A DNA stretch of 64,000 bases, taken from Mytilus galloprovincialis. Taxonomy: Eukaryota; Mollusca; Bivalvia; Mytilida; Mytilidae. This document shows positions 4,501-44,960 of the stretch, piece by piece. The stretch's first letter is position 1; every line of letters starts with the position of its first letter. Position numbers and translations under genes: made by a program. The notes beneath the pieces are model-generated. The model made no database searches, was not told where the DNA came from, and was given only the letters and a program-made list of their open reading frames with translations. Location: positions 92,089,743 to 92,153,742 of the forward strand of contig NC_134839.1 of assembly GCF_965363235.1 (NCBI RefSeq), in the 5' to 3' direction.

Positions 4501-7500
4501 TGATTTGAGTCTGGTGCCAGAACATAGAACAAACATCGATTCAGTAGAGTTTGCCAAATTTTTCTATGGCCGGTTCAGTCAAATCGTTTCCGAATCATAG
4601 TTTGGTCTGCTGATATCCTTATCGCGATAAACATTGAGCATGGCAAGACCGCACAATCTCTCGCCACTCATGCATGCTCTTTTCCAAGATTTCAGTCGTT
4701 TCAGGGCAGTCTGTGTTTCTAAAGGTAGCACATTATCATCAACACAATGATCAATGTCTTCTTCCAATTCCTTCTCCATCAGCAATTCGGTAGCAGCATC
4801 GGTAGTAACAGTTTTGTTTGCAAAAGGGAATTAAGCTTTCCTGTAAGCACCATCATACAGTCGCAGTTACAAAATATTAAACTCGCTTTTATGCTGACAA
4901 AGAGTAGACAAACTAGGGATAGAATGAGATAAGATACATGTATATGATTCTATCTATAGAGTAAGTATATATGATATGGGAACATGGGAATTGGAATGGA
5001 GTTTTTGACGTTTACATGTAGTTTCGTAATTTCAAATTATTTCTGGAAATAGTTGGTGGTATTTTAGTTCCCGAATCTATAAATTTAGGGGTTAGGGGTT
5101 GGGGGTGTCCCATTCCGAAACCCCGAATATAAAGAAACGAAATTCCGTAGTCCCGGATTAGTAAAGACAAAATCCTGTGTTAAAGGTTCTACCATTCCTC
5201 AATAATATCAAATTGGAATATGGAATGTTCTTTCAAATTTTAAGGTAAAAGAAACATTGATAAAAGCTAATCCATGCATGCATTCATGTTTCATATTATT
5301 TATATTTTATTTATCTGTAAAGAGAAAGATTAAAGTTCGTGAAATGAATACGCAGACAGGACTGCCCCCCTTCCGAAGACCAGTACTTGATTTGTCAGTC
5401 TACTTATCCTAATGAAGTTATATGCAATACTAAGACTCTGTTCACCAAAAAACTAGTTTACTAGAATTATTCCTTCTTTATCTTCAGTTTCTTTTCCTTT
5501 TTCTGCAAGAGCCTGTTTTAACTAAAGATCCATGATGATTATCGTTACTAGGTTAATGTAATCGAGAAACATCACCCGTTGAGATGCTGGGTTATATCCA
5601 TGAAGAATAGTTTAAAAGGAATGAATAAGTTATAGAAATTGAGGTTGAGACAGAACAACAAAAGACTATTATATTTCATGATATATGTGTATAAAAAAAA
5701 ATAATCAGTGTCGAAATTTTAGTGAGGCAATTGCCTCACTTGCCTCAAGGGTAGTTACGGCCTTGGTTTTCTTGTGTTTTATTTTGAGAATAGTAGTAGT
5801 GATTCAGGAGTGGTCTACGTTACTTAGAATTAGGTTTCAAGGGAAGATAATAAACTTTTGTCACGTAAGAGATAACAAGTATATATGATATGATGGCTAT
5901 ATACAATTTAGCACAGCTCTTTAAATGTAAACTATTCTTTCAGAAACATATTGTCAACAAGAGTTGAAACAGTTTCATAAAAACTCAGAGCTGGGTATGG
6001 TTGGAGGAAGAAAGCCGGTTTGTGATAGCGAGGGAAACTACGCCCCGAAGCAGTGCTCAGGGTCTCAGTAAGTGCTGTAATACAAACAAATTAAATATAA
6101 TAGACTTTCGTATTGAAACAATATCAATGGGACCTTGAAGGGAAATGCGTGACAGTTCATCAATGAGTGAATATATATGATTGTGCATTCTCGCATTTAG
6201 AAGATACTATAACATTTAGAAGGGGGATTAAACAAACGTAACTATGATAAAGAGTTAAATTTTAGAAAAACTTTGAAAACGTCCGTTTGCACAGAAACTA
6301 AATATAAAAGATGCATAACACGTTAAATGCAACAGCAACACTATCCACATAAACAAAAGACATCTAAAAAGCAACAAACAATCACCAAAAATACATATAC
6401 TAGTACTAGTGATATACTTTGTCCTAGATGTACCTGATCAGACATACACTGAAAGAGCAATAATGTGCTTCTGTGACGGATTTTTCTGCCAAGCCTCAAA
6501 TCTGGATTATAACAAAGTTAGCGCACTGGTAAATACATAGTATCGCTCAAAATGTATAAGATTAGCAAACCCATAAAGATAAAGACCAGAATTTAAATAC
6601 TAAGGAACGAATGTAATACAAAGTACAACATTTGAAATCTTGCAAAAAAATAACATACAAAAAAAAAAAAACCCAACAAAACCAAAATTAAACCACATCT
6701 GAGATTTGTCTACGGTTTGCATAGAAACCCGCTAATTCTTGCTCAAAAACACTTCAAAGTTAAAATAATGTATTTCCAGAGAACTGCTATGTAAATGTCT
6801 ATATTAAGAAAATGATACTATAAACCCAGATTTTTGTTTTGTTTTATTATAGAATGTATGTACCCATTGGTGGCCTTCGGCTGTTGTCTGATTTATGGTT
6901 GGGTTGTTGTCTCTTTGTCACATTCCCCATTTCCATTCTCAGTTTTATATGTTTGAATTAGATACAATATGCGTTTTTTCATATTGGTGTTATTGTCAAT
7001 TTCAGATGTTACTGTGTAAAGGAGGACGGTAAACAAATTGAAGATTTTAGTGTTAACCGTTGGGAGGCCGAACAACAGACATGCAGTAAGTATCCCTGTA
7101 TTATATAATCTCTATAGAACAACAGACATGCAGTAAGTATCCCTGTATTATATAATCTGTATTGAAAACTGATTGCGTTAAAAAAAAAAATGGGAATGGA
7201 AATGTGGAATGTGCCAAAGAGACAACAACCCGACCAAAGAGCAGACAACATGTCTACTTACACCAAGATGTCGTTAAATGAAGATTTTCAGTAGAATACT
7301 TTATGGTCAAATCGCTGAAATATCCTCTCCTAAATGTTTAAAAAAAATCATTTTGCATTGAAAATATCTTTGATACAAATTAGATACACTCGTTCGGGGT
7401 TACGCCTTCAAGGTGTATCTAATACTTAGATGTATAAATACCACGAATTGGTAACTCGAATACAGTAATTGTGAAAACAAATAGGTTCGCCTACAATTAT

Positions 7501-10293: not shown

Positions 10294-13200
10294 CTGAAAC
10301 GAGGACAAAGATTATTTATAGCCTGAAATATCGTGCAAACATACATTGTAATTGCATTTACTGTTTATTGGAGACTAAAAATAGTAAGTTTATTGTAAAT
10401 GTCTTTTGGTTCTTTTTGTCATTGGTTTGCTGAAGATGTGTTTGGACTTTTTCTGTCGTTGAGTTGCTGTAGAGGTATTTTAGTTATTTGCATCTGTTGG
10501 TTGCGGTCTCATTGAAATTATCCATCTCCTTTCTTTTGTAAGATTTAAGTATATAAAAACGAAATCATTCAGAGTGGTGACTATGAGCTCCCCAGAATAA
10601 TTTTTTTTGAAGATGACAAAAAATGTATAGACACAAAAAATGATGTGCATCTTTTCAGTTGTGCATTACCTAAAATATCGATAAGAAATCAAATTGACAT
10701 GTAAGTTCAAAATACCTGGGGTAAAGTGGGAACATCTATGTTTTTCACAATTTGGTCTGGTGAACTGGCTCCTGTTATTGCTACCGGTACATTGTCTTGC
10801 TGCAGTAACCAGGCTAAAGATGCTTTCCCCATGTCTACGTTGGCTCGCTGACATATATTCTTCATTTTAGCAATTGCCTGTGAATAAAAGGTATGTGTGT
10901 CATGGAAATGGAGTAAAAACTAGAAACTGAAATATCTGAGGGTCCAAACAGACACATTTAACACTTCTAAATAATGCAAACAAAACACAACGCATATTTG
11001 GAGTCGCATTTTCGAAAATTTTAACACCAGAAATTAATTCACCTTCTACGAATGACAACGGGAATCATCTTTAAAAATAGCTACAAATACGCCTTTGTTA
11101 CCATCCTAGCGCAAAAAGTTGATGCTAAAAAAAAACACAATGCTTTTCCATCATCATAGAATCATAAAGACATTTCTCTTCACAGATATAAACGCCATGC
11201 GTACAAATAACGGAAATCTGTTGAATAAATCTGTGTTTTATGCTTTAGATGTGTACGATATAGAAGTGCTCATGGGAGGACAGATATAGTGTTAATAACT
11301 ATAAGTCGCATACAAGTGGACCCAAATTACACTGTAAATGGGTTTAGGGCGTAGACTACATTGAATTCAAATAAATCATTAGTCATTTAGAAAATAAAGC
11401 AGTACTTTTTTTAAGGTAAAAATATAGTAAGAAAGAAGTTTTCTCTGAAATATCACAACCGATTTACCCGGCCTGGTCACAATCTTAGCGTTTTTACAAG
11501 AATCAACCAATGCTGCGCTCATCCTGAACGTGCAAGCAAAATCTTCAAGCTCTTTCTCTGGAACATAATATTATAGTTATACTCTACAAACAGATTTCGA
11601 CAGAAAACCAGAAGAACTTGATTTCACAATCCTGCAGACGACTGTTATGCTTTAGTAGATAATTACCGTAAACATCTCGTCTTCTGCACCATCTTGACCA
11701 TGTCTGGTTTTAGGATTTCTTTAAAAATCAAATAACATATTTTTATTTTTAGTATCTTTAAAAATCGAAAAGATAAATTTTTATAATTTCAACAGAAATA
11801 CACATGAGCGGAGTTTTTTCTGAAAAAAATATAAATGAAAAGGTTGGCAGCTATTTTTGTCAAGTACAAATTTGTAAAATTTGGTCTCAGTATTTTATTT
11901 TGTCTGAAGATTTATGATTAAATATTGTTTTCCTCCATACTTTAATTTGATTAATATGAGTTATAATTTTGGCCATATTAAAAAAGTAGATATATCAGTA
12001 TTTAATTTAAGATCATATAATCATTGAAAGTATAGTATTTGAATTTAGGTAAAAGTAAAATTGCATTAAAAGAGAAGGTAGTGATCAAGTTTATACATAT
12101 ATGCCATCCTGTCTGAACTTACAGACTGATCAGCGCATGTTTTTACCCAGATGTGTGGAAAAGTTTAGTCAGCCTCCGTCCCATAGGAACATCATCAAGT
12201 TTGGTAAATTTTCCTGTAAGAAGACCTTGTTGCAGCGGCGAATAAGCCAGTATACTTATATTGTTTTCCTTGCATAATGGTATAACTTCATGCTCGGCTG
12301 ATCTCCATAATAAATTGTATCCCATCTATATTAAGTAAATATTTAAAGAGTTAGATATAAGAAGATGTTACATGTGTGCCAATGAGACAATTCTCCATCC
12401 AAGTCACATGTTGTATGTGGTCAGAGACCACAATTGTCGTCCCTTGATTTTCGTTGTAGTCCCTAGTGTTGACAGTGGGTTACTTGCCATTAATTTTTAT
12501 ACCCCTTCCAAATTTATTTCTCCATGTTTAATGCCTCAAATTGCAAGTAGGGGGGTGAAATTACACTGTAAAAAAAATTGGGTCCAGAATTTTAAAGGAA
12601 AGTAGTGATTTGGTCCAGCTGAAAAAGGTTGAAAATTAGCACTTCGGAAGCTGTCAAAAGATTTCAAGACGCCCTAAACATAAAATTGTCCATATTTTGA
12701 GTTAGAGCCGATGAAGTTTTCTATAATTTTGATATAATTTGTCCCAAAAGTAGTACAACACACTGTAAAAGTTTCTTTGAGAAAGCGCAGGTGGGATTTT
12801 TTTTTATTTTCATTTATGTTCTAAAAGAAATGCACTACGAAATAATTGTGTTCTCGGACCATGTATTGAAACAATTCCCTATCACAGAATGTTTAACATG
12901 ATACAAGGCTTAAAGTATTAAGTGCAATCGAATACTAGTATACAAGAAACTCCTATGGTGTCTGTTCATTGAAAATAACTCGTACATTCAGAGGGATAGA
13001 GTTCATAGATTTTCATTTGCTTTGCAGGATTTAGTTTCGAGTGCTGATAATGAAAAGTAAACACTTAACAGATAATTCCACCTACGACTATGTAGCACAC
13101 AAATGTGTGCACAATCACCTACCTGATTAGAAACGGGTTTACCACCCAAATCTAGAAAATTCTTCAAGTTTTTAGGACCATAGTTAGATAAGCCATAGTA

Positions 13201-16200
13201 TCGAATTCTCCCTAAAGCGATTTGTCTGTTGAGTTCCTTTACACAATCACTAACATCCGCAACAAAACTAGGAAAATGAATCTGAAATAAAATAAAAATT
13301 TAATAAAAAGCTTATAATCAATAAAATACATTATTTGGAAAGAAAACAATGCATACAGTGGTTCAATTTATAAACTGAAGATGGAAAATCTAACAGATTA
13401 TAAAAATAAAAAAAATGTGGTAATGAGACACCTCTCTACAGAAGACCAAAATGACAAGAAATTAACAACCATATGTCAATGTACAACCTTCAACAATGAG
13501 TAAAACCCATACTGCACACTCAGATATAAAGACCCCGAAATGACATAAGTCAAAAAACAGTAAACATATGAAATGTTTAAAAAATAAGTGTAGCAAAAAA
13601 TGTATTGTCAAAATATTTAACGGTATTTCCAGTACTGGTTTGTATCCCCAAAAAAGTGAAGATTAGTTACCAATGTTTTTAAAATTCTGATTCAAAATGC
13701 CATAACATTGCAGGGCTATAACAATTATGAGCTGCATTGCAAACTTTCGGCTGTTGTCTACTCTTTGGTAGGGTTGTTGTCTCTTTGACATATTCAACAT
13801 TTCCATTTTCAATTTTATTTTAATGTATTGCTAAATAACAGATAAGATCACTATTTAGACATATTTAGTATCATGTCAGAAACTTAAATTGGTTTTCAAA
13901 CGAAAGTGAGAACTGCTGATCGCATATTTATTTTGAAGGATAAAAAATCATATCTGATTGTTCAAACGGTCAAAGAGATATAAAAATGTTTTTAAATATA
14001 TGAATAAGATATTTTTCTTTTATTCTTGAATGCAGAAAATTAAATTTAACTATACAGGAGGCCACGTGATAAAGCACATGCATATGCTTCCATAAATATC
14101 AGCCTTAAATGCCTGTTAAAATTACCTGAAGTAAGTCTACATATGAGGTTTGTAATTTTGTCAAAGCCTTTGTTATAGCCTCGTCTATTTGTACAGCGGT
14201 ATAAGGCGGAGTGTTAGGTCCTTCTCTAAATCCGAACTTAGTAGCTATAATAGCTTCCTGTCGTCTGCCTTGTAGAGCTCGCCCTAATACCTGCTCAGAT
14301 CCAGCATAACCCTGTAATAATAAATACAACATTCCACATTGGTGTGTTGACATTTCAAAATTCAAGAAATGTAGAAATTCATGTAACGGATAGTGACATG
14401 TTACAAATTAAGAAATTGCATTTTACAAATTAAGAAATTGCATTTTACAAATTAAGAAATTGCATTTTACAAATTAAGAAATTTCATTTTACAAATTAAG
14501 AAATGTATAATCATGGCGGATAATCCCCTCCATAGAGTATATTTTAGTTTTCAGATTCCGATTGCAGTTCTCTATATGCATGTGTTTTTGTATTGGGTTA
14601 GTGATGAAAGTATGTTCCGTCTTAATAAAGTATGCAATGCTATGTTTAAAAATGGTACTATAAGTGATCACAAGATTTAAAAAATCTTTTGACAAAAGGG
14701 TAATTGAAAAATATTTAAAAATAAAATCAGAAGTATGAAGGGTTGTATTAAACAATAACAGAAAAGATTGTTTAGGGAATGTTTCATGTGTCACACAATT
14801 ATAAGGAATCTTGAAAACACCCTTAATTAGATATAATACCAAGGTACCTCAGCTGTATCAAAGAAATTTATTCCGACTTCCAAGCATTTGGTTACTATAG
14901 CTCTCGAAACCTACAAACAGGCAATATACATAATACTCATAAAAAGATTTGCTACATATTTCGGTTTATATAAGTTATATCAATGTTGTGATTACACAAC
15001 TGTTCCATCTAAGGGAATTAGGTTGTCTAATGAGCGTTTGGCCCCTGATACATTCCTTATATGCCGGTCCCAAGCCAGGAATCTGTAGTTTAGTACTTGT
15101 CGTTTGATGTTTGATCTTGGTCTATATAGATTCAGATTCAGATTCAATATTTTATTAGTCTCACCACTTGCAATAAATATAATACAATCATCATAATATA
15201 TACATTGAATAAAACAGTAATTTTATAAATTAAAATACAAGTGCCATTCTATAAAGAATTATGAAAGATTATAGAAATCAATTTAAATTATAACTATATA
15301 TTTATCATGATTATAAAATATTTCCGTTATGTAAAACTATATATGTATGGGTATGTTGCAATCTAATAAAATTTCAAAACTTTCGAAATGGCGTGCTCGT
15401 TCGTCATCTTAAACACAATTTGTGTGCCCTTTCTAATACAGCATTTCTCGCACAAGAGAGCCTGCTCGTAAAAGCCTTTTCTAGAAGTTACAGTTGCCCA
15501 TACGAAATTTTAAACGTGTTTTCTTTGTTCAATTGGAAATATATAGCTGTTCAGCTAGTTTCGTATCCCTTCATAACTGCAAGATATCCCGGGCCCCTAT
15601 CCTTTGGATTATTGGTGTACGCCATTTAGAAGTACTGCCTTGAGATAAAAGGTATGGAGAGAAAAGTATGTCACATTAAAGATTACATATACATGTGTGA
15701 AACTCAATATTTATCCTTTATCTCTTTACCAATGATACCTATATACTTCACTTTGCTATGTACTAGGTCAGAAAATAAGAACATCTTACATAAGGACAGC
15801 CGGTTTATTGTTGGGTCAAATGCGTTTAATGATAATTGACATAATATATATTAAATTATATCAAACATGGAACATTTAATTCAATGAACTTACATACATT
15901 TATTAAAGTTCATGAACAGTTTCATATCTTTGTTACACAAACCAGCATGGATTTTATTTTGTGTAGAAAATAACCCATTTCAATTGTAAAACAAGTCTCC
16001 AAAGCTTACTTAAATTTAAAAACTCATACTTCTTACATAATTATGGAGTTACTGAAAAAAAAAAATCAAAAAAAATTCATAAATTATTGCTGTGTTCGGT
16101 AACATTGGTTATAAATTACCTCTACATGAACCATACCTCTTCTGACTGTGCCTCCCAAGCATTAGTTTCTTTGTTGTCATTGAATTGCCAGGTACCTAAA

Positions 16201-16524: not shown

Positions 16525-16827
16525 TTCTTCTTCTTCTTCTTCTTCTTCTTCTTCTTCTTCTTCTTCTTCTTCTTCTTCTTCTTCTTCTTCTTCTTCTTCT
16601 TCTTCTTCTTCTTCTTCTTCTTCTTCTTCTTCTTCTTCTTCTTCTTCTTCTTCTTCTTCTTCTTCTTCTTCTTCTTCTTCTTCTTCTTCTTCTTCTTCTT
16701 CTTCTTCTTCTTCTTCTTCTTCTTCTTCTTCTTCTTCTTCTTCTTCTTCTTCTTCTTCTTCTTCTTCTTCTTCTTCTTCTTCTTCTTCTTCTTCTTCTTC
16801 TTTTCTTCTTCTTCTTCTTCTTCTTCC
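16525..16827. repeat. (CTT)n / (GAA)n microsatellite, about 100 units
   Basis: A nearly pure trinucleotide tract, with one extra T near 16801-16804. The long homopolymeric open frames it makes on both strands are artefacts. On the minus strand it directly follows the stop codon of a LINE fragment, so it may be that element's 3' tail. Confidence 0.97.
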
Positions 16828-19434: not shown

Positions 19435-20070
19435 CTATGTTTTTTCATTTATACCCTCTGGGGAGACTGTCCGTAACTTTCTTATCCAAAATCTTTCCCG
19501 AGCGACTCTGTCGACCTTCGACCAACCCTCGTTGTGGTCTATGATCGTGATGGTAAGGTTTTTGAGATCAGCTTGTGTGTGTCCAGGTGATCTCAAATGA
19601 CGACTTACGGGTAGGTCGGGCTTGCAAGTGTAGTCACTTCGATGACCATTCATGCGTTTGTTAAATGGCTGCTCTGTCTCGCCAACATACTGCATGCCAC
19701 ATCGACATTGAAGGAGGTATACAACATTCTGGGTTTTGCAAGTTACATTGCAATATATAGTGTACACAGACCCAGTCGAGTGGCAAGTGAATGTTTGAGT
19801 ATTCAGTATTTGTTGACAAGTCAGGCAACGTCTGTTACCACATGACTTGCACCATCCTGCAATTGAACAGCTTTTATTTGAGGAGACGTCAGCTCTAACA
19901 AATAAGTCTTTCAGACTTGCTGGTCTCCGAAAAGCTAAGACAGGAGGATTGGGAAAGATCTTGGATAATTTAGGGTGTTTGGCAATAGTTTGCCAATTGG
20001 CACGGATCAAACGTGAAAGGTTATTAAAGGCTGGATTGTATGTAAGAACTCGGAATTCGTCGATTTTCAT
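19435..20070 (-). pseudogene. Penelope-like element, left copy: zinc motif and GIY-YIG endonuclease
   Basis: The 211-codon frame contains a Cys-rich linker (CKSCGNRRCLTC) and a GIY-YIG-type nuclease core (VVYLLQCRCGMQYVGET, then a conserved Arg and His-Arg). The first seven or so codons come from antisense of the neighbouring copy's reverse transcriptase, so this start is not native. No polymerase domain is left. Confidence 0.85.
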
Positions 20071-21540
20071 TTAAGATCTCATGTAGAAAATCTTCCTTCC
20101 CACATTCAAGACACTACAGATTATCTTCGTAAAATGGAATCCATGAACCCTCTTCCTCCGGAAACCCTCCTTGTCACTTTAGATGTCACCTCATTGTATA
20201 CCAACATACCTCATGATGACGGCATACAATCTTGTAGGGAAATATGGGACTCGCGCAACATTTTAGAACCACCTACTGAATGTTTAGTCCAGCTGCTTAC
20301 TCTGGTCCTGAAATGCAACAATTTCACCTTTAATGGTGAGCATTACCTTCAAATTAACGGGACAGCGATGGGGACGAAAATGGCACCGTCTTACGCCAAT
20401 ATTTTCATGGGCAAATTAGAAAAACAAATTATTGCAACATCTTTATCCAAACCTTTGTCTTGGTTCCGTTTCATTGATGATGTTGACATGAAATGGATTG
20501 AATCTCAACAAAAACTGGATGATTTCATCAGACATGCAAACAACGCCCACCATTCAATTAAATTTACGTATGAAATTTCCGACTCTAAGATATCTTTCTT
20601 AGACACAACCACATCTATAAAGGACGGTGTCATATCAACAGACCTTTACTGTAAACCCACAGATAAACATCAATACCTTTCTCCCCAAAGCTGTCACCCC
20701 AAACACTGTACAAAAAGTATCCCGTACAGTCAAGCTCTCAGAGTCAAGCGGATTTGCTCCTCTGAGGAGGCTGTCACGAAACGGTAACAGGAACTTCGCG
20801 GATTTTTGACAAAACGAGGTTATAAGAAATTGGACATAGATAAGGGGTTTGCGCGCGCTAACAATAACAGCCGCAATGACCTCTTACAATACAAACGGAA
20901 GAGGCGCAGCAAAATAGTCCCGTTTGTTCTTACATACAATCCAGCCTTTAATAACCTTTCACGTATGATCCGTGCCAATTGGCAAACTATTGCCAAACAC
21001 CCTAAATTATCCAAGATCTTTCCCAATCCTCCTGTCTTAGCTTTTCGGAGACCAGCAAGTCTGAAAGACTTATTTGTTAGAGCTGACGTCTCCTCAAATA
21101 AAAGCTGTTCAATTGCAGGATGGTGCAAGTCATGTGGTAACAGACGTTGCCTGACTTGTCAACAAATACTGAATACTCAAACATTCACTTGCCACTCGAC
21201 TGGGTCTGTGTACACTATATATTGCAATGTAACTTGTAAAACCCAGAATGTTGTATACCTCCTTCAATGTCGATGTGGCATGCAGTATGTTGGCGAGACA
21301 GAGCAGCCATTTAACAAACGCATGAATGGTCATCGAAGTGACTACACTTGCAAGCCCGACCTACCCGTAAGTCGTCATTTGAGATCACCTGGACACACAC
21401 AAGCTGATCTCAAAAACCTTACCATCACGATCATAGACCACAACGAGGGTTGGTCGAAGGTCGACAGAGTCGCTCGGGAAAGATTTTGGATAAGAAAGTT
21501 ACGGACAGTCTCCCCAGAGGGTATAAATGAAAAAACATAG
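20050..21540 (+). pseudogene. Penelope-like element, right copy: reverse transcriptase and GIY-YIG endonuclease
   Basis: One reading frame runs from the junction to 21540 with a single in-frame TAA at 20785-20787. The 5' part shows polymerase motif A ([11 protein letters not shown]), motif B ([16 protein letters not shown]) and motif C (RFIDDV). The 3' part repeats the Cys-rich linker and the GIY-YIG nuclease of the left copy. The N-terminal part of the polymerase is missing. Such proteins copy RNA at a nicked target; this copy is dead but looks young. Confidence 0.88.
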
Positions 21541-32023: not shown

Positions 32024-32437
32024 ATGAGAGTGTCAACATCATGGTTTGTAGCCGGAGTTGGAGGCTTGTTTTTTCTACTTGTCATGATGTTTTATGCCAA
32101 AAATTCTAGTTTAAGTCAATATTTGACATCAAATCTAGATATTTCTTCTCCTGAGATCAGAGGGGCTTTCAATGAAGACAGAAAACAAGTGGTTTTCATG
32201 CAACAATTCCAACCACAACAAATAAATCAAAACAGGATAGCACAATTTGATTATAAAAAGGCGATGAAGGAACTGATAGATAGGAATACAGCTGCTGATG
32301 ATAAGACATTGGTTACAATGATAAGGAACTATTACATAGAACAACCTTCTACAGAACCATACCACTTAGATTTCCCAGATAGACTGGAGTACTCAAATGG
32401 ACAGACACCATTCATTGATAGTAGGCTCAATTACATA
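32024..32437 (+). CDS. FkbM-domain gene exon 1 (membrane anchor and stem)
   Basis: 138 codons. The ATG at 32024 is chosen because the anchor follows at once. The exon ends LNYI with donor ttacata|gtaagt. Its last 77 bases, from 32361, are unit 1 of the tandem array. Confidence 0.85.
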
Positions 32438-35400
32438 GTAAGTAAATGTACCTATCTTAGACAACTTAGATTTCCCTGATAGACTGGAGTACTCAAATGA
32501 ACAGACACCATTCATTGATAGTAGGCTCAATTACATAGTAAGTAAATGTACCTATCTTAGACAACTTAGATTTCCCAGATAGACTGGAGTACTCAAATGG
32601 ACAGTCACCATTCATTGATAGTAGGCTCAATTACATAGTAAGTAAATGTACCTTTCTTAGACAACTTAGATTTCCCAGATAGACTGGAGTACTCAAATGG
32701 ACAGTCACCATTCATTGATAGTAGGCTCAATTACATAGTAAGTAAATGTACCTTTCTAAGACAACTTAGATTTCCCTGATAGACTGGAGTACTCAAATGA
32801 ACAGTCACCATTCATTGATAGTAGGCTCAGTTACATAGTAAGTAAATGTACCTTTCTTAGACAACTTAGATTTCCCAGATAGACTGGAGTACTCAAATGG
32901 ACAGTCACCATTCATTGATAGTAGGCTCAATTACATAGTAAGTAAATGTACCTTTCTTAGACAACTTAGATTTCCCTGATAGACTGGAGTACTCAAATGG
33001 ACAGTCACCATTCATTGATAGTAGGCTCAATTACATACTAAGTAAATGTACCTTTCTTAGACAACTTAGATTTCCCTGATAGACTGGAGTACTCAAATGG
33101 ACAGACTCCATTCATTGATAGTAGGCTCAATTACATAGTAAGTAAATGTACCTTTCTTAGACAACTTAGATTTCCCAGATAGACTGGAGTACTCAAATGG
33201 ACAGTCACCATTCATTGATAATAGGCTCAATTACATAGTAAGTAAATGTACCTATCTTAGACAACTTAGATTTCCCAGATAGACTGGAGTACTCAAATGG
33301 ACAGACACCATTCATTGATAGTAGGCTCAATTACATAGTAAGTAAATGTACCTTTCTTAGACAACTTAGATTTCCAAGATAGACTGGAGTACTCAAATGG
33401 ACAGTCACCATTCATTGATAGTAGGCTCAATTACATAGTAAGTAAATGTACCTATCTTAGACAACTTAGATTTCCAAGATAGTCTGGAGTACTCAAATGG
33501 ACAGACACCATTCATTGATAGTAGGCTCAATTACATAGTAAGTAAATGTACCTTTCTTAGACAACTTAGATTTCCCAGATAGACTGGAGTACTCAAATGG
33601 ACAGACACCATTCATTGATAGTAGGCTCAATTACATAGTAAGTAAATGTACCTATCTTAGACAACTAAGATTTCCCTGATAGACTGGAGTACTCAAATGG
33701 ACAGTCACCATTCATTGATAGAAGGCTCAATTACATAGTAAGTAAATGTACCTTTCTTAGACAACTTAGATTTCCCAGATAGACTGGAGTACTCAAATGG
33801 ACAGACACCATTCATTGATAGTAGGCTCAATTACATAGTAAGTAAATGTACCTATCTTAGACAACTTAGATTTCCCTGATAGACTGAAGTACTCAAATGA
33901 ACAGACACCATTCATTGATAGTAGGCTCAATTACATAGTAAGTAAATGTACCTATCTTAGACAACTTAGATTTCCCAGATAGACTGGAGTACTCAAATGG
34001 ACAGACACCATTCATTGATAGTAGGCTCAATTACATAGTAAGTAAATGTACCTATCTTAGACAACTTAGATTTCCCAGATAGACTGGAGTACTTAAATGG
34101 ACAGACACCATTCATTGATAGTAGGCTCAGTTACGTAGTAAGTAAATGTACCTTTCTTAGACAACTTAGATTTCCCAGATAGACTGGAGTACTCAAATGG
34201 ACAGTCACCATTCATTGATAGTAGGCTCAATTACATAGTAAGTAAATGTACCTTTCTTAGACAACTTAGATTTCCCAGATAGACTGGAGTACTCAAATGG
34301 ACAGTCACCATTCATTGATAGTAGGCTCAATTACATAGTAAGTAAATGTACCTATCTTAGACAACTTAGATTTCCAAGATAGACTGGAGTACTCAAATGG
34401 ACAGACACCATTCATTGATAGTAGGCTCAATTACATAGTAAGTAAATGTACCTTTCTTAGACAACTTAGATTTCCCAGATAGACTGGAGTACTCAAATGG
34501 ACAGACACCATTCATTGATAGTAGGCTCAATTACATAGTAAGTAAATGTACCTATCTTAGACAACTAAGATTTCCCTGATAGACTGGAGTACTCAAATGG
34601 ACAGTCACCATTCATTGATAGAAGGCTCAATTACATAGTAAGTAAATGTACCTTTCTTAGACAACTTAGATTTCCCAGATAGACTGGAGTACTCAAATGG
34701 ACAGACACCATTCATTGATAGTAGGCTCAATTACATAGTAAGTAAATGTACCTATCTTAGACAACTTAGATTTCCCTGATAGACTGAAGTACTCAAATGA
34801 ACAGACACCATTCATTGATAGTAGGCTCAATTACATAGTAAGTAAATGTACCTATCTTAGACAACTTAGATTTCCCAGATAGACTGGAGTACTCAAATGG
34901 ACAGACACCATTCATTGATAGTAGGCTCAATTACATAGTAAGTAAATGTACCTATCTTAGACAACTTAGATTTCCCAGATAGACTGGAGTACTTAAATGG
35001 ACAGACACCATTCATTGATAGTAGGCTCAGTTACGTAGTAAGTAAATGTACCTTTCTTAGACAACTTAGATTTCCCAGATAGACTGGAGTACTCAAATGG
35101 ACAGTCACCATTCATTGATAGTAGGCTCAATTACATAGTAAGTAAATGTACCTTTCTTAGACAACTTAGATTTCCCAGATAGACTGGAGTACTCAAATGG
35201 ACAGTCACCATTCATTGATAGTAGGCTCAGTTACATAGTAAGTAAATGTACCTTTCTTAGACAACTTAGATTTCCCAGATAGACTGGAGTACTCAAATGG
35301 ACAGTCACCATTCATTGATAGTAGGCTCAATTACATAGTAAGTAAATGTACCTATCTTAGACAACTTAGATTTCCCAGATAGACTGGAGTACTCAAATGG

Positions 35401-38400
35401 ACAGTCACCATTCATTGATAGTAGGCTCAATTACATAGTAAGTAAATGTACCTATCTTAGACAAATTAGATTTCCCAGATAGACTGGAGTACTCAAATGG
35501 ACAGACACCATTCATAGATAGTAGGCTCAATTACATAGTAAGTAAATGTACCTTTCTTAGACAACTAAGATTTCCAAGATAGACTGGAGTACTCAAATGG
35601 ACAGACACCATTCATTGATAGTAGGCTCAATTACATTGTGAGTAAATGTACCTATCTTAGACAACTTAGATTTCCCTGATAGACTGGAGTACTCAAATGG
35701 ACAGTCACCATTCATTGATAGTAGGCTCAGTTACATTGTAAGTAAATGTACCTATCTTAGACAACTTAGATTTCCCAGATAGACTGGAGTACTCAAATGG
35801 ACAGTCACCATTCATTGATAGTAGGCTCAATTACGTAGTAAGTAAATGTACCTATCTTAGACAACTTAGATTTCCCTGATAGACTGGAGTACTCAAATGG
35901 ACAGACACCATTCATTGATAGTAGGCTCAATTACATAGTAAGTAAATGTACCTTTCTTAGACAACTTAGATTTCCCTGATAGACTGGAGTACTCAAATGG
36001 ACAGACACAATTCATTGATAGTAGGCTCAATTACGTAGTAAGTAAATGTACCTATCTTAGACAACTTAGATTTCCCAGATAGACTGGAGTACTCAAATGG
36101 ACAGTCACCATTCATTGATAGTAGGCTCAATTACATAGTAAGTAAATGTACCTTTCTTAGACAACTTAGATTTCCCTGATAGACTGGAGTACTCAAATGG
36201 ACAGTCACCATTCATTGATAGTAGGCTCAATTACATTGTAAGTAAATGTACCTATCTTAGACAACTTAGATTTGCCAGATAGATTGGAGTACTCAAATGA
36301 ACAGTCACCATTCATTGATAATAGGCTCAATTACATAGTAAGTAAATTTACCTATCTTAGACAACTTAGATTTCCCTGATAGACTGGAGTACTCAAATGG
36401 ACAGACACCATTCATTGATAGTAGGCTCAATTACATTGTAAGTAAATGTACCTATCTTAGACAACTTAGATTTCCCAGATAGACTGGAGTACTCAAATGG
36501 ACAGACACCATTCATTGATAGTAGGCTCAATTATGTAGTAAGTAAATGTACCTATCTTAGACAACTTAGATTTCCAAGATAGACTGGAGTACTCAAATGA
36601 ACAGTCACCATTCATTGATAGTAGGCTCAATTACATTGTAAGAAAATGTACCTTTCTTAGACAACTTAGATTTCCCAGATAGACTGGAGTACTCAAATGG
36701 ACAGTCACCATTCATTGATAGTAGGCTCAATTACATAGTAAGTAAATGTACCTATCTTAGACAACTTAGATTTCCCAGATAGACTGGAGTACTCAAATGG
36801 ACAGACACCATTCATTGATAGTAGGCTCAATTACATAGTAAGTAAATGTACCTTTCTTAGACAACTTAGATTTCCCAGATAGACTGGAGTACTCAAATGG
36901 ACAGTCACCATTCATTGATAGTAGGCTCAATTATATAGTAAGTAAATGTACCTATCTTAGACAACTTAGATTTCCCAGATAGACTGGAGTACTCAAATGA
37001 ACAGACACCATTCATTGATAGTAGGCTCAATTACATAGTAAGTAAATGTACCTTTCTTAGACAACTTAGATTTCCCAGATAGACTGGAGTACTCAAATGA
37101 ACAGACACCATTCATTGATAGTAGGCTCAATTACATAGTAAGTAAATGTACCTTTCGTAGACAACTTAGATTTCCCAGATAGACTGGAGTACTCAAATGG
37201 ACAGTCACCATTCATTGATAGTAGGCTCAATTACATAGTAAGTAAATGTACCTTTCTTAGACAACTTAGATTTCCCAGATAGACTGGAGTACTCAAATGG
37301 ACAGTCACCATTCATTGATAGTAGGCTCAATTACATAGTAAGTAAATGTACCTATCTTAGACAACTTAGATTTCCCTGATAGACTGGAGTACTCAAATGG
37401 ACAGACACCATTCATTGATAGTAGGCTCAATTACATAGTAAGTAAATGTACCTATCTTAGACAACTTAGATTTCCCAGATAGACTGGAGTACTCAAATGA
37501 ACAGACACCATTCATTGATAGTAGGCTCAATTACATAGTAAGTAAATGTACCTTTCTTACACATCTTAGATTTCCCAGATAGACTGGAGTACTCAAATGA
37601 ACAGACACCATTCATTGATAGTAGGCTCAATTACATAGTAAGTAAATGTACCTTTCTTAGACAACTTAGATTTCCCAGATAGACTGGAGTACTCAAATGG
37701 ACAGTCACCATTCATTGATAGTAGGCTCGATTACATAGTAAGTAAATGTACCTTTCTTAGACAACTTAGATTTCACAGATAGACTGGAGTACTCAAATGG
37801 ACAGTCACCATTCATTGATAGTAGGCTCAATTACATAGTAAGTAAATGTACCTATCTTAGACAACTTAGATTTCCCTGATAGACTGGAGTACTCAAATGG
37901 ACAGACACCATTCATTGATAGTAGGCTCAATTACATAGTAAGTAAATGTACCTATCTTAGACAACTTAGATTTCCCTGATAGACTGGAGTACTCAAATGG
38001 ACAGACACCATTCATTGATAGTAGGCTCAATTACATAGTAAGTAAATGTACCTTTCTTAGACAACTTAGATTTCCCAGATAGACTGGAGTACTCAAATGA
38101 ACAGACACCATTCATTGATAGTAGGCTCAATTACATAGTAAGTAAATGTACCTTTCTTAGACAACTAAGATTTCCCAGATAGACTGGAGTACTCAAATGA
38201 ACAGACACCATTCATTGATAGTAGGCTCAATTACATAGTAAGTAAATGTACCTATCTTAGACAACTTAGATTTCCCAGATAGACTGGAGTACTCAAATGA
38301 ACAGTCACCATTCATTGATAGTAGGCTCAATTACATAGTAAGTAAATGTACCTATCTTAGACAACTAAGATTTTCCAGATAGACTGGAGTACTCAAATGA

Positions 38401-41400
38401 ACAGACACCATTCATTGATAGTAGGCTCAATTACATAGTAAGTAAATGTACCTTTCTTAGACAACTTAGATTTCCCAGATAGACTGGAGTACTCTAATGA
38501 ACAGACACCATTCATTGATAGTAGGCTCAGTTACATAGTAAGTAAATGTACCTATCTTAGACAACTTAGATTTCCCAGATAGACTGGAGTACTCAAATGG
38601 ACAGACACCATTCATTGATAGTAGGCTCAATTACATAGTAAGTAAATGTACCTATCTTAGACAACTTAGATTTCCAAGATAGACTGGAGTACTCAAATGG
38701 ACAGACACCATTCATTGATAGTAGGCTCAATTACATAGTAAGTAAATGTACCTATCTTAGACAACTTACATTTCCAAGATAGACTGGAGTACTCAAATGG
38801 ACAGTCACCATTCATTGATAGTAGGCTCAATTACATAGTAAGTAAATGTACCTTTCTTAGACAACTTAGATTTGCCAGATAGACTGGAGTACTCAAATGG
38901 ACAGACACCATTCATTGATAGTAGGCTCAATTACATTGTAAGTAAATGTACCTTTCTTAGACAACTTAGATTTCCCAGATAGACTGGAGTACTCAAATGG
39001 ACAGTCACCATTCATTGATAGTAGGCTCAATTACATAGTAAGTAAATGTACCTATCTTAGACAAATTAGATTTCCCAGATAGACTGGAGTACTCAAATGG
39101 ACAGACACCATTCATAGATAGTAGGCTCAATTACATAGTAAGTAAATGTACCTTTCTTAGACAACTTAGATTTCCCAGATAGACTGGAGTACTCAAATGG
39201 ACAGACACCATTCATTGATAGTAGGCTCAATTACATAGTAAGTAAATGTACCTTTCTTAGACAACTTAGATTTCCCAGATAGACTGGAGTACTCAAATGG
39301 ACAGACACCATTCATTGATAGTAGGCTAAATTACATAGTAAGTAAATGTACCTTTCTTAGACAACTTAGATTTCCCAGATAGACTGGAGTACTCAAATGG
39401 ACAGACACCATTCATTGATAGTAGGCTCAATTACATAGTAAGTAAATGTACCTATCTTAGACAACTTAGATTTCCAAGATAGACTGGAGTACTCAAATGG
39501 ACAGTCACCATTCATTGATAGTAGGCTCAATTACATAGTAAGTAAATGTACCTTTCTTAGACAACTTAGATTTCCCAGATAGACTGGAGTACTCAAATGG
39601 ACAGACACCATTCATTGATAGTAGGCTCAATTACATAGTAAGTAAATGTACCTATCTTAGACAACTTAGATTTCCCAGATAGACTGGAGTACTCAAATGG
39701 ACAGTCACCATTCATTGATAGTAGGCTAAATTACGTAGTAAGTAAATGTACCTATCTTAGACAACTTAGATTTCCCTGATAGACTGGAGTACTCAAATGG
39801 ACAGTCACCATTCATTGATAGTAGGCTAAATTACGTAGTAAGTAAATGTACCTGTCTTAGACAACTTAGATTTGCCAGATAGACTGGAGTACTCAAATGA
39901 ACAGTCACCATTCATTGATAGTAGGCTCAATTACATAGTAAGTAAATGTACCTATCTTAGACAACTTAGATTTCCCAGATAGACTGAAGTACTCAAATGG
40001 ACAGTCACCATTCATTGATAGTAGGCTCAATTACATAGTAAGTAAATGTACCTTTCTTAGACAACTTAGATTTCCCAGATAGACTGGAGTACTCAAATGG
40101 ACAGTCACCATTCATTGATAGTAGGCTCAATTACATAGTAAGTAAATGTACCTTTCTTAGACAACTTAGATTTCCCAGATAGACTGGAGTACTCAAATGA
40201 ACAGACACCATTCATTGATAGTAGGCTCAATTACATAGTAAGTAAATGTACCTATCTTAGACAACTAAGATTTCCAAGATAGACTGGAGTACTCAAATGG
40301 ACAGACACCATTCATTGATAGTAGGCTCAGTTACATAGTAAGTAATCATACCTATCTATAAAGTCATAAAACCAAGCTCTCCCATAAAAATGTTTGAAAA
40401 TCATATTGTGACCCTCAAAACAAATAAGAAATAAAAAGTCTTTAATACTGTCCTCACATAATTGCTGATCAGCTATTTATAATAATACCTGCTTATAGTA
40501 AATCTTATCAATGAACAAATGTTTATATGATCATAAAAGAAATATATTTCTTTCTATGGGTGCCTATTATATACCTGTATACATGTTTAAACATATTTAT
40601 TCAGTTATATTGTTATACCAAATTCAGATTTTTGTTTACATCATTAATACATCAAAGTAATACAAATTGAATGGTATGTGCAATGACACTGTAAAAAGTC
40701 TTCTCGTACTTTAGAGAAAAAGATAATTAGCAGATCAATTCATGATATATTGAAAAAAAATAAATTTAAAACTAAAACTTTGTTTACATAATTCAGTTAC
40801 CAGTGAACACATGTATCATTAGACTTGCTACAATTCCCTTTCTTTTATTTCTTTCTTAATAATTTATATATGTAATGTTTACTGACAAGTGTCAGTCTAC
40901 TGATTGGCATTGCAGATGTCAGTATAATGGCATTCTCCTAGTTATAGCAGTACAATTGTTAAAGGGTCAAAATTGAAAAAAAAACATAATTAGGAAGAGA
41001 CATGTAGCAAGTCTAATGTATCATCAACATTGATATTTCATAAAAAATTAACTTATTCATATTTTCAACCAAAAAAACACAAACTGTCAGCTCCTTATTA
41101 TCACTTGTCAGTTGTAAAATGAAGTTGCTAATCAGAACCATATTGACAATTTATATTTTCTGATAACCATGATAACAAAATGACTGAAATTTTGAATTAC
41201 TGGTATCTATAGGAGACATGACATATTAAAGATTAAAACACAACTTAGCCTTTCAATTAGAGATTTGACAAATAGTATAACTATAACCAAGGCCAGTACT
41301 ATGCTTGTTCCTGACCTGGTTATTCATCTTGCTAGGTTGGGGGAACTAGCTGGTAGCTTTTATATGAATACATGTCAACGTAACACAGATTCAAAGTTCA

Positions 41401-43981
41401 ATATATAATGTTTATTAATTCAGCATTCAGTATAGTTTATCAATCACAATAATCACAATAATCACATATGTTCATGAAACATGATAAAACAGTATGTCTG
41501 ATATAAATCCAAGTCTATAACACAAGTGTAAACTACAAGTGTCAGAATACAAGTCCAATACGTGACTCTAAGGCAAGTGTCCCAAACTACATGGTCAACT
41601 ACTATATATTGTATTTTCTCATAATTCAATTTACATAACATTAATACTCATTTATCTAATTTACATAATAATGCTATTTTATCTATTTTCCCAAATATCA
41701 GGTCTTTGTGACATAACCTAAATTATCTTAAAAAGTAAGAAATCCTTTTTGTCTATAACACTTCTCTAATCCTTAATTCTCTATTGTCATTTAGCCCTCA
41801 GGGGATTACATAATAATTTGCTTTACACTTATCTAAAATTGTGAAGATTTATATTAACTATTTATCAAGTAAATTATTTCTTAAGCTAGTGCTAAATATC
41901 TTAACTAATACTGAATTATAACAAATATTCAAATTCCACATTTTAACATTCTTGCATCTAAAATATACTGGTTATATAACCATTTCTCTTATGGTTGTGG
42001 CCTGTTATCTATTTCTTGTATGAATAGATATTTCTGGTATAATCCTGCATGGTAGATGAAAGAAAATATACATTTTGCCAATATAGGAGTAAGTTTGGTT
42101 ATGTTTCTAATTAACCTGGATATTTAGTCCATTATTTCAAGGTAAAAATGGTTCCAGATGATGAAAAATTAAATCAAACTATTTTTATGAAGTTTTTCTT
42201 TCAAAGCATTGGCGTTTTCACTGCCAAAAAGGTTCAAAATTGAGATTGGGATAATTGTTTTAATCAATTATATATGTAGGAAACATAGAGCCCAGGGTTT
42301 TGACAAAGTGAATTATCAGATACATGTATATCATTTATAGTAACCAACATATTAAGAGTAGATTTCATTTGTCCATGCATGCCCTATATGCTTCTTGTCA
42401 TGAAAAACAACAGAAATTCACCTATTTTCATTGACTTCCATAAATAAGGATCTCAATTTCTGTAAAAAACACTGAATCTTCAAAGTCCAACAAAAAGACC
42501 TATTTCTTATCTAGACACTGTTCATGCTGTTTGAGCTAGGATTCATTATAATAGTGGTCATAAATCATTATTTGAAATTTTAGCTACAAATGGATCATTT
42601 TCACACCTACTCCTTTAAGTTATAAATATAAATTTACAAGAATTAGGTAAAATAAAGTACACATGTATGACTGCAGTAAGCAAATACAAGAATATAAGTT
42701 TATAAAAATAAGGTGACATACAGAACACAAATCCAGGAAAATATACACTCTACCGATAAATTTCAAGTTTAAAATATAAGGATAAAAATATTACACAGCT
42801 ATATCCAAGAACATACTAGTTGTGTACTGTTTCATAGATGGTTCTCTGCTCTGGTGCCTTTTTAACTTTTTATACAGTTTGCTTTTGCTTAATTTGTTAA
42901 AGGCCACACAATGACCTGCAGTTGTTTGCACCATTTCTTTTGGTGCTGTGTTTGATTGTTGTTTCTATCACAATGAAACCACACTTTCTGATTTCTATAT
43001 TTCACACTGTTCAGTAACACCAGTAAAAAATTCTGGGATTTTCTTTTAAAGGAAAAACAGAATATTAATACTTTTCTTATTGACCATTAATTGATAATTT
43101 GCAGGAAGGAGGTTTTTATGTAGAATGTGGTGGTCTGAATGGAGAGAAAGGATCTAACACATTTTTCTTTGAGAAAGTCAGGAAATGGAATGGTTTACTG
43201 ATTGAGGCAGATCCTACCAATTATGCAGCATTAAAATCAAAGCATAGAAAAGCTTTCTCAGTGAATGCTTGCCTAAGTCCTAGAAGTACTCCAGCAAAGG
43301 TATGCTATAGTTACTTATTGTCAGCAAAGATATTCAGTAAGATTGCATAAATAATCAGACAAAACAGAAACACAAGTAAAGGGATATTTAGTATACAAGG
43401 ATAAAAAAAGAAGATGTGGTATGATTGCCAATGAGGCATGTTTGATGGGATCTCCAGCTTAGTTTTTATCCAAAACTTCCAGAGATTTCAAAAACCAGAA
43501 ATAGTTAATACCATTAATGGCGAATGCTTTGTCACTGTCATAAATAAAATCCTTAATGATTGTAAGAGCATAAGTCAGAAGAAGCAAGTTATTCATATTC
43601 AATTATTTACTGGATATAGTTAATACTATATTTAAAAATAGTCAAATTTATAAAGATTGTTGAAAAAATTAAGGAGCCAAAACCCAGTGGGAACCTGTTT
43701 GTATTCAGCAGTAGCTTTGCATTCAGTCCTTATTGAAGCATGTTTGCCTACAATTAAATCTTTATAAGATGTTGTAGGTATTAAAGAACTTGAATTTATT
43801 ATCTCAGTTTTAAGTATTTTGTTAAAGTAATTATGCCAAACAAGACAATATGTCTGTGTGATTCTCTAAACTTATAATTACGCTGTGGCTGCTGTCTGTC
43901 TTTAAATTTCTCATTGCCCTGGAGTAAAGAAAGCTAGGATTATGTGCCACTGCCGTTGCAGAAGGGACAATAAGTTTTACC

Positions 43982-44064
<83 letters not shown>

Positions 44065-44960
44065 TCATAAGTCCCAATATTGGTTTCCATTCTTTAACTT
44101 GAGTTTGCCTCAACCAAATGTTATGAATCTTATACAATATGCATAATACTGCAAAACATAGATCAAGTACAACTTTGGGTTGTGTCACTTATACTATTCG
44201 TTAGTTATGTCCCTTTATAAGGTCATATGCAAGTGGGGCCATCATCTGTGTACCATAGACATATTCCCTATTTATTTTATTCAACATGTCTAACTTGTTC
44301 CTTGGCATATTATCATTTCAAACAGACACATTTTTTTTACTGTCATAGCTATATAGTCAGTTTTAACCTTTTGCAATTGTATGACTACCTAAAAAGCCAA
44401 AAAAAAAAAAATACCCAAATTTTTGTGATGAATCATACAATTCCTATGTTTGACATCCTCAAATAACAAGTTACTGGCTTAATTGAGGAGTCATCAGAAA
44501 AATTATAAAAAGGTGACCACAAATTATGCAGATATTTTGAAGTACTTACAGTTATCTTATTATGTTTTTTTTCCAGTTGACATTTAACAAAGCATTTAAC
44601 AGAGGAAGAATAGTACATGATAAGGATGCACAAGATTGGATTAGAAGGCAACACATAGCTTCAGATCCTGTAGAAATAGAATGTTTTCCATTTTACTCCT
44701 TCATGCTAGCACTGAATAGAACAACGATAGACTTCTTCAGTTTAGATGTAGAGGGTGATGAACTTAATGTATTAAAAACTATTCCTTTTGATAAATTAAA
44801 TATCAAAATGTTGGCAGTGGAGTACGTTCATGAAACTGGTGGCCATAACCAGTTACAGAGATACATGGAGAGTAAAGGCTACGACACATTGTTAAAAATG
44901 CAGAGAGATGATGGCGGTGTAAACGATTTAATATTCAGAAAAAAGGGGTTAAAGCATTAA
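32024..44960 (+). CDS. FkbM-type methyltransferase-domain membrane protein (whole gene, three coding exons)
   Basis: Joining 32024-32437, 43105-43299 and 44577-44960 gives 993 bases: 330 residues plus TAA, with both introns in phase 0. Residues about 7-25 (SWFVAGVGGLFFLLVMMFYA) form one membrane anchor at the N-terminus, as in type II Golgi proteins. The FkbM-type domain begins with GGFYVECGGLNGEKGSN (about 140-156), the SAM-binding start. WNGLLIEADP follows, then FFSLDVEGDE (256-265), the most typical FkbM motif. The family methylates sugars or other small substrates; many animal members are uncharacterised, so the substrate is unknown. Intron 1, over 10 kb, contains about 80 tandem copies of the exon 1 end with its splice donor. 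A candidate AATAAA lies at 45506-45511. Confidence 0.9.
32361..40358 (+). repeat. About 80-copy, 100-bp tandem array of exon end plus splice donor
   Basis: The unit is 77 bases of exon 1 (acttagatttcccagatag... to ...caattacata) plus 23 bases of intron (gtaagtaaatgtacctttcttag). The start word recurs every 100 bases from 32361 to 40261 without any shift of register, that is, 80 units. Substitutions are scattered: gacacca/gtcacca, aaatgg/aaatga, cctatc/cctttc. A block of nine units is itself duplicated. Nearly all units keep GTAAGT; the unit near 33038 has CTAAGT. The last unit's donor, at about 40338, is intact. Confidence 0.98.
40359..43104. other. Rest of FkbM-gene intron 1
   Basis: Unique-looking AT-rich sequence. 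No coding frame or repeat family is recognised. Confidence 0.5.
43105..43299 (+). CDS. FkbM-domain gene exon 2
   Basis: 65 codons, phase 0. The acceptor is atttgcag|gaagga and the donor caaag|gtatgc. It holds the first two FkbM motifs (GGFYVECGG and GLLIEADPTNY). Confidence 0.9.
43409..43437 (+). repeat. Short fragment of repeat A in intron 2
   Basis: 'gatgtggtatgattgccaat', then gaggca, matches the start of 541-760. Confidence 0.75.
43984..44062 (+). repeat. (TCTG)n microsatellite
   Basis: About 19 units with one interruption (gtgtctg near 44013). It is followed by a dispersed module (44063-44190, 'gcctcaaccaaatgttatga') that recurs at 57055-57130. Confidence 0.95.
44577..44960 (+). CDS. 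FkbM-domain gene exon 3 (C-terminal half of the domain)
   Basis: 127 codons plus TAA. The acceptor is ttttttccag|ttgaca. It contains IDFFSLDVEGDELNVLKTI and KMLAVEYVHE, the SAM-fold strands typical of FkbM. Confidence 0.92.
   Translation: MTFNKAFNRGRIVHDKDAQDWIRRQHIASDPVEIECFPFYSFMLALNRTTIDFFSLDVEGDELNVLKTIPFDKLNIKMLAVEYVHETGGHNQLQRYMESKGYDTLLKMQRDDGGVNDLIFRKKGLKH

Follow-up and report, generated by a model that had tools for sequence, protein, structure and literature searches.

Introduction

The closest described relatives of the element reported here are found in human genes. In CBS, a 31-bp variable number of tandem repeats (VNTR), c.1444_1467+7(16_21), is recorded in the available text of its report as 16-21 copies of a constant 31-bp unit with single-base substitutions (PMC2630376). 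Another variant of this gene, 844ins68, is an insertion that adds a splice site, and its mRNA is given as mostly wild-type in the accessible part of the source (PMC1334203). Long intronic minisatellites in ABCA7 (intron 18) and hTERT (intron 6) are tied to splicing or expression in the accounts at hand, and the portion available on intron gain describes it as proceeding through tandem genomic duplication of AGGT-bearing exon sequence (PMC3443670). In this study, we analyzed a stretch of 64,000 nucleotides from the mussel Mytilus galloprovincialis (NC_134839.1, positions 92,089,743 to 92,153,742 of the forward strand; hereafter the window), in which 80 tandem copies of a 100-bp unit lie across the 5' splice site of a predicted FkbM-type methyltransferase gene.

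The 844ins68 variant is a duplication across an intron/exon boundary, with one extra copy on the acceptor side. By the title of a 2001 report of Lievers et al., the CBS 31-bp VNTR is reportedly associated with reduced CBS activity, and the same report is said to deal with alternative splicing in connection with the VNTR.

Results

Structure of the array

The array is probably a minisatellite spanning an exon/intron boundary, which would be tolerated through use of its first donor. The features of the array and its host gene, with the basis of each in brackets, are as follows.

32024..32437, plus strand: first coding exon, 138 codons, with an N-terminal hydrophobic stretch, ending in NYI (in-frame join)
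32361..40358, plus strand: array of 80 100-bp units (Tandem Repeats Finder, TRF; unit table)
32438..32443, plus strand: donor 1, ATA/GTAAGT (in-silico splicing from every donor)
32538..40343, plus strand: donors 2-80, one per 100 bp (unit table)
40261..40360, plus strand: copy 80 (unit table)
40338..43104, plus strand: rest of the intron after the last donor, 2767 bp
43105..43299, plus strand: second coding exon, in which the FkbM methyltransferase domain begins (EGGFYVECGG) (in-frame join, Pfam)
44577..44960, plus strand: third coding exon with the stop codon (open coding sequence)

A preliminary description of the window had reported an 80-copy unit of 77 exonic and 23 intronic bases, placed within intron 1 and always in the same orientation, and both TRF and a table of the individual units bear this out. 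TRF places the repeat at 32364-40357 with a period of 100, 79.9 copies, 96% matches and 0% indels. In the table, each unit is exactly 100 bp and comprises 77 nt of coding exon end followed by 23 nt of intron start, and the units begin at 32361 + 100n without any length change. The last 77 nt of the first coding exon are copy 1 of the array. The variation consists of point substitutions at constant unit length: 189 of the 8000 cells deviate from the consensus (2.4 per unit), with 42 distinct substitutions at 38 unit positions and 52 distinct unit sequences among the 80 units. The donor consensus is kept in almost all copies, in agreement with the preliminary description, with GT intact in 79/80 units, GTAAGT in 77/80 and ATAGTAAGT in 66/80, and AG directly precedes the exon part in 78/80. 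Copy 80 carries nine deviations, six of them within the last 15 intronic bases, where it merges into the native intron. The deviations include a TAA in the exon frame, as is also present in five other units.

Units 13-19 are the same as units 22-28 and form a higher-order duplication (33484..35229, plus strand) with 846 bp that recur unchanged 900 bp downstream; this is the longest exact repeat inside the array, the next longest being 218 bp. Neighbouring units differ at 3.42 positions versus 3.62 for any two units, and rare variants are common to units that lie far apart. The near-equality of these differences, the recurring rare variants and the duplicated 900-bp block are what repeated unequal exchange, with extensive shuffling, would give. 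Among the distinct variants, transversions (27) are more numerous than transitions (15) and A>T is the most frequent change (10).

Several other identities were considered for the array. A coding repeat was rejected, as the frames each contain 248-253 stops and the longest open stretch is 46 codons. A structured RNA array was rejected as well, since the units fold no better than their shuffles (z -0.08 to 1.02 for two units on the plus strand, one on the minus strand and one 3-unit stretch), and no Rfam match at the gathering threshold was found within the window. Finally, the array does not appear to belong to a dispersed satellite: all 35 scored DNA matches of the unit in its own genome (one assembly of 1.385 Gb in 331 contigs) fall inside this array, in a search that scores the best candidates only and skips very common words, and is thus no proof of rarity. 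The poly(A) signals AATAAA and ATTAAA do not occur in the array because the multiplied single unit has none; three of each are present in the following 2.7 kb.

The host gene and the predicted product of each donor

Joining of 32024-32437, 43105-43299 and 44577-44960 yields a coding sequence of 993 nt that is open to the stop and encodes 330 aa. The join NYI/EGGFYVECGG at the acceptor 43104/43105 keeps the frame, and the intron is 10667 bp long when measured from donor 1. The first coding exon was recovered in the genome search as a 100% match at C2:92121766-92122179. The gene product matches PF05050 (Methyltransf_21) with 46.3 bits versus a curated cut-off of 22.7 (E 6.5e-12, with a query that missed five residues at the start of exon 3), which identifies the host gene, at the level of protein homology, as an FkbM-type methyltransferase gene. 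The intron had been called intron 1 before. It is indeed the first coding intron, and the sequence CAG/GTAATT at 31411 is a candidate donor of a possible upstream 5' untranslated region (UTR) exon, so that the number may not hold for the whole transcript.

When spliced in silico to 43105, donor 1 yields the full-length protein and each of donors 2-80 (79/79) runs into a stop at codon 152. Inclusion of one 77-nt pseudo-exon, taken from units 2-80 in turn, leads to a stop at codon 141 in 72/79 cases, at codon 164 in 6/79 and at codon 170 in 1/79. The competition among donors that was proposed earlier would thus matter, given the stop at codon 152 behind every later donor; its accompanying hint that the donors are being maintained finds no support in the variation among units (P = 0.77, see below). 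The predicted pairing with the U1 5' end lies between -7.0 and -7.2 kcal/mol in 78/80 donors and at about -4 in the other two. Elsewhere in the window, 98 of 6255 GT sites on both strands pair with U1 at -7.2 kcal/mol or better.

Paralogs and the age of the junction

A genome search with the exon-1 protein returned 86 matches, namely the exon itself, the 79 further array units and six other exon 1s. All six of the latter are single-copy and have a phase-0 donor at the corresponding place, from which the exon/intron junction is seen to predate the array. The nearest paralog (C2:92319331-92325893, minus strand) possesses the same phase-0 intron, here of 4823 bp, with a single donor ATG/GTAGGT. 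In the other five paralogs, whose acceptor side was seen just as the starts of protein matches, the 0.6-1.8 kb around each contains no donor array and only one 18-bp x 3.2 repeat (L034). A tblastn search of 209.7 kb of flank (L009-L029) revealed no FkbM relative.

The host-gene donor, ATA/GTAAGT (ATA at 32435-32437), lacks the G at position -1, which is present in all six paralogs (AAG or ATG). It pairs with U1 at -7.2 kcal/mol, more weakly than the donors of the six paralogs (-8.0 to -12.5 kcal/mol). The loss of this G may have come before the expansion and may be relevant to it.

Variation at the donor bases

The number of distinct variants per site is 0.50 within GTAAGT and 0.42 across the unit. 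The six donor bases carry three distinct variants versus 2.5 expected (permutation P(<=3) = 0.77), and selection on these bases was therefore rejected in a test of low power, the donors varying as much as the remaining unit. As conservation at the donor does not exceed that of the rest of the unit, it can be attributed to youth and homogenisation, and donors of such good appearance would be expected anyway in an array that is young or homogenised. The exon part of the unit has 28 distinct variants versus 32.3 expected (P 0.06), of which nine are synonymous and 19 are not, 20% of the possible changes being synonymous; codon positions 1 and 2 have 16 versus 21 expected (P 0.06). In the last four bases of the unit, five distinct variants were found versus 1.7 expected (P 0.01); the flank of copy 80 contributes two or three of the five.

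Clear and probable donor-spanning repeats elsewhere in the genome

The window contains 25 separate tandem arrays, as obtained from 35 TRF rows after merging. GTAAGT is found in two of them, and both lie on an exon/intron junction. The second one belongs to a thyroglobulin type-1-like gene.

7006..7085, plus strand: exon of the thyroglobulin type-1-like gene, ending GCA/GTAAGT (in-frame join to 7761; Pfam)
7070..7166, plus strand: 47-bp unit x 2.1, made of the last 16 nt of the exon and 31 nt of intron, with donors at 7086 and 7133

Donor 1 of this repeat joins the exon at 7761 in frame and donor 2 leads to an early stop. The protein joined from 7006-7085 and 7761 onwards matches PF00086 with an E of 3.1e-9, the matched stretch being in the second exon.

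Genome-wide, the pattern GGTAAGT-N30-60-GGTAAGT-N30-60-GGTAAGT gave 1636 + 1444 matches versus 801 + 1251 for the reversed pattern (TGAATGG). These counts are of matches and not of arrays, and the array of the window itself escapes the pattern, being without the -1 G. The 1.5-fold excess of GGTAAGT mostly reflects the abundant tandem repeats of this genome. A total of 66 tandem arrays with units of at least 20 bp cover 25.1 of the 223.7 kb of flank and paralog sequence (23 pieces), which indicates that tandem duplication is common in this genome; just one of these 66 has at least two GTRAGT on one strand.

The upstream flanks were read for 17 further GGTAAGT arrays (L037-L053), all on C1, which are all those among the matches listed. 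In six of the 17, the open frame that leads up to the first donor exceeds that of shuffled flank (p <= 0.05). One of these six, L044, has a 48-bp unit that is open throughout the piece read and may be a coding repeat. L041 (57-bp unit) is uncertain with p 0.073, and the copine-like L046 has p 0.136. Homology to known exons was suggested at a modest level for three of the 17 flanks: a copine-like one (L046; Protein BONZAI 1, with E 9.1e-6 for the full chain across two C2 stretches and 0.85 for the best single one), a gelsolin-family-like one (fragmin P, E 6.8e-4) and a myotubularin-like one (Pfam E 0.0022, below the curated cut-off; Y_phosphatase3 E 0.066; PDB E 0.16). Pfam was applied to the ten flanks with longer open frames; beyond the myotubularin-like match, it returned only DHNA with E 0.14, taken as chance, and eight others were blank. 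Seven of the ten belong to the 14 flanks besides the three with homology, and among these seven one gave the DHNA match and six gave nothing. As judged from these frames, several other GGTAAGT arrays probably begin in exon-like sequence.

Discussion

Probable origin and tolerance of the array

According to the explanation that we prefer, the array would have started in the FkbM-type methyltransferase gene when a tandem duplication took in 100 bp on both sides of the donor of an old phase-0 intron, and slippage and unequal exchange would then have grown it to 80 units. Copy 1 would remain the true exon end with the true donor, and copies 2-80 would be plain intron. If the 5'-most donor is used almost always, the protein is not affected by duplications across a 5' splice site, so that nothing stops the growth of the repeat and it may drift to a large size. 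The extra donors would at most cost some correct splicing, and their products would be removed by nonsense-mediated decay; it is quite possible that this cost rises with copy number. How the duplications took place, and in which order, is what we infer from the present arrangement. This explanation accounts most simply for the presence of 80 copies in an open gene and also for the small case at 7070.

We further propose, as a tentative extension with somewhat less than even chances, that minisatellites of exon end and donor are recurrent in this genome. Unrelated genes would carry them at the 3' end of genuine exons, with near-identical 5' splice sites numbering from a few to 80, and the arrays would exist since splicing commits to the 5'-most of equal donors, which makes the duplication invisible to selection on the protein. 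If this is true, the classical experiment with competing donors has been repeated naturally in this genome, and copy number is what varies between the replicates.

Several points weigh against these proposals. That donor 1 would be chosen over 79 near-equal rivals is not trivial, and its use is deduced from the reading frame. When 5' splice sites compete, the choice reportedly goes towards the intron-proximal site, as in the title of Hicks et al. 2010, and the intron-proximal site is also said to have been often favoured in the work of Eperon et al. 1993; here this site would be copy 80. The test of selection on the donor is weak, as with 42 variants even a complete absence from the six donor bases would be seen in 7.5% of random throws. 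Moreover, the flanks of the GGTAAGT arrays were compared with shuffled flank, and the comparison does not separate donor arrays from arrays in general.

Alternative explanations

The 79 later donors may instead be decoys that compete with donor 1, so that the share of stop-bearing, lost transcripts rises with copy number and the protein amount differs by allele, the array being a dial of expression or a hypomorphic allele. We regard this as unlikely, though not far-fetched, because the predicted products would fit it: all 79 later donors lead to the stop at codon 152, all 79 single inclusions of a pseudo-exon end at codon 141, 164 or 170, the U1 pairing of 78/80 donors is nearly equal, and the host donor is weaker for U1 than those of the six paralogs. 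The reduced CBS activity reportedly linked to the human VNTR, by the title already mentioned, points in the same direction, and a longer ABCA7 VNTR accompanies lower expression in the part of that literature at hand. However, the gene stays open and variation in copy number is not in evidence in the one assembly, and a loss of expression may as well be a side effect of a tolerated boundary minisatellite as an alternative to it. A functional platform for U1 is quite improbable. In this case, about 80 U1 sites in 8 kb would hold the U1 small nuclear ribonucleoprotein (snRNP) on the nascent RNA and suppress premature poly(A) use, retain the RNA on chromatin or strengthen a weak first donor. The density of sites is suggestive, since 8 kb contain 78 donors that pair at -7.0 kcal/mol or better and the whole remainder of the window has, on both strands, 98 GT sites at -7.2 or better. 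Suggestive too are the loss of the -1 G, unlike in 6/6 paralogs, and the lack of AATAAA and ATTAAA in the array when six occur in the next 2.7 kb. An action of U1 through deep intronic sites has been proposed for the SMN genes in the accessible text of one report (PMC11289892). On the other hand, the lack of poly(A) signals already follows from the single unit, the donor bases show no extra conservation, and the nearest paralog manages an intron of 4823 bp without an array.

The two remaining explanations are less probable again. An assembly artefact, with a true array of far fewer units or some other error in copy number, is very unlikely: the copy number does come from the assembly alone, but there are 52 distinct unit sequences, and with a longest internal exact repeat of 846 bp followed by one of 218 bp, the array could be placed by accurate reads that are a few kilobases long. 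The window is also without N in a contig of chromosome size (115.9 Mb). Hardly credible is a cassette of repeated micro-exons, in which each unit would supply a 77-nt exon with an ACCT(A/T)TCTTAG acceptor and a GTAAGT donor of its own. An AG does stand just upstream of the exon part in 78/80 units. However, 77 nt shifts the frame, so that a stop is reached no later than codon 170 in 79/79 single inclusions, the units are separated by a spacer of only 23 nt, and the 3' site is ordinary in pyrimidine content, being equalled by 31% of the AGs in the window. Its last four bases, in which the five distinct variants exceed the 1.7 expected (P 0.01, with two or three from the flank of copy 80), are if anything more variable than average.

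Other features of the window

The stretch 19435-21540 holds a reverse-transcriptase (RT) fragment, with PF00078 at 20017-20784. The same downstream open frame flanks it on both sides in opposite orientation (19435-20070 on the minus strand and 20788-21540 on the plus strand). Aldo/keto reductase-like exons are located at 13003-14407 on the minus strand; the piece 14105-14407 matches PF00248 with E 4.1e-10, and no Pfam match was found for the shorter piece 13003-13299. TRF also reported a TTC x 101 run with 99% matches at 16525-16826.

Comparison with known systems

The CBS 31-bp VNTR, as far as its name and the available text describe it, consists of 24 exonic and 7 intronic bases and so multiplies a 5' splice site, like the mussel array. 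The latter has a longer unit, about four times as many copies and a different host gene. In the same sources, the CBS repeat is a known polymorphism with a reported association with enzyme activity, whereas the mussel array is known from its sequence alone. Both 844ins68 and the mussel array add splice sites, the human insertion by one extra copy on the acceptor side. For the ABCA7 and hTERT VNTRs, the available accounts do not describe a make-up from an exon/intron boundary. Intron gain by AGGT duplication resembles the mussel array in that tandem duplication multiplies splice-site sequence, and differs, as described in the accessible part of that work, in making a new intron from an exon, whereas the mussel array lengthens an old intron from its 5' end.

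Within the mussel genome, arrays such as L046, L047 and L049 have units of 50, 52 and 62 bp that likewise extend from the end of an exon-like open frame over a donor. They differ from the 80-copy array in belonging to other genes, in the copy number (2.9 to 4.7 within the pieces read, beyond which some of them continue) and in carrying the -1 G, which the search pattern imposes. In a narrow search of open-licence literature, no exon/intron-boundary arrays were found outside human. The preliminary description knew of no described system of this form; this does not hold, given that the human CBS VNTR by its name spans a 5' splice site and that one clear and several probable cases occur in the same mussel genome. 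The kind is thus already known, and what is new is the size, 8 kb and 80 donors, together with signs of recurrence in one genome.

To our knowledge, the choice among equally good 5' splice sites is usually studied with few engineered sites. An open gene with 80 donors, of which only the first is predicted to give the protein, offers together with a clear two-copy case and the probable others a test of donor choice, including its scaling with copy number. The mRNA from such genes would tell whether boundary repeats are silent or lower the output of the gene, as is reportedly suggested by the title on the CBS repeat.

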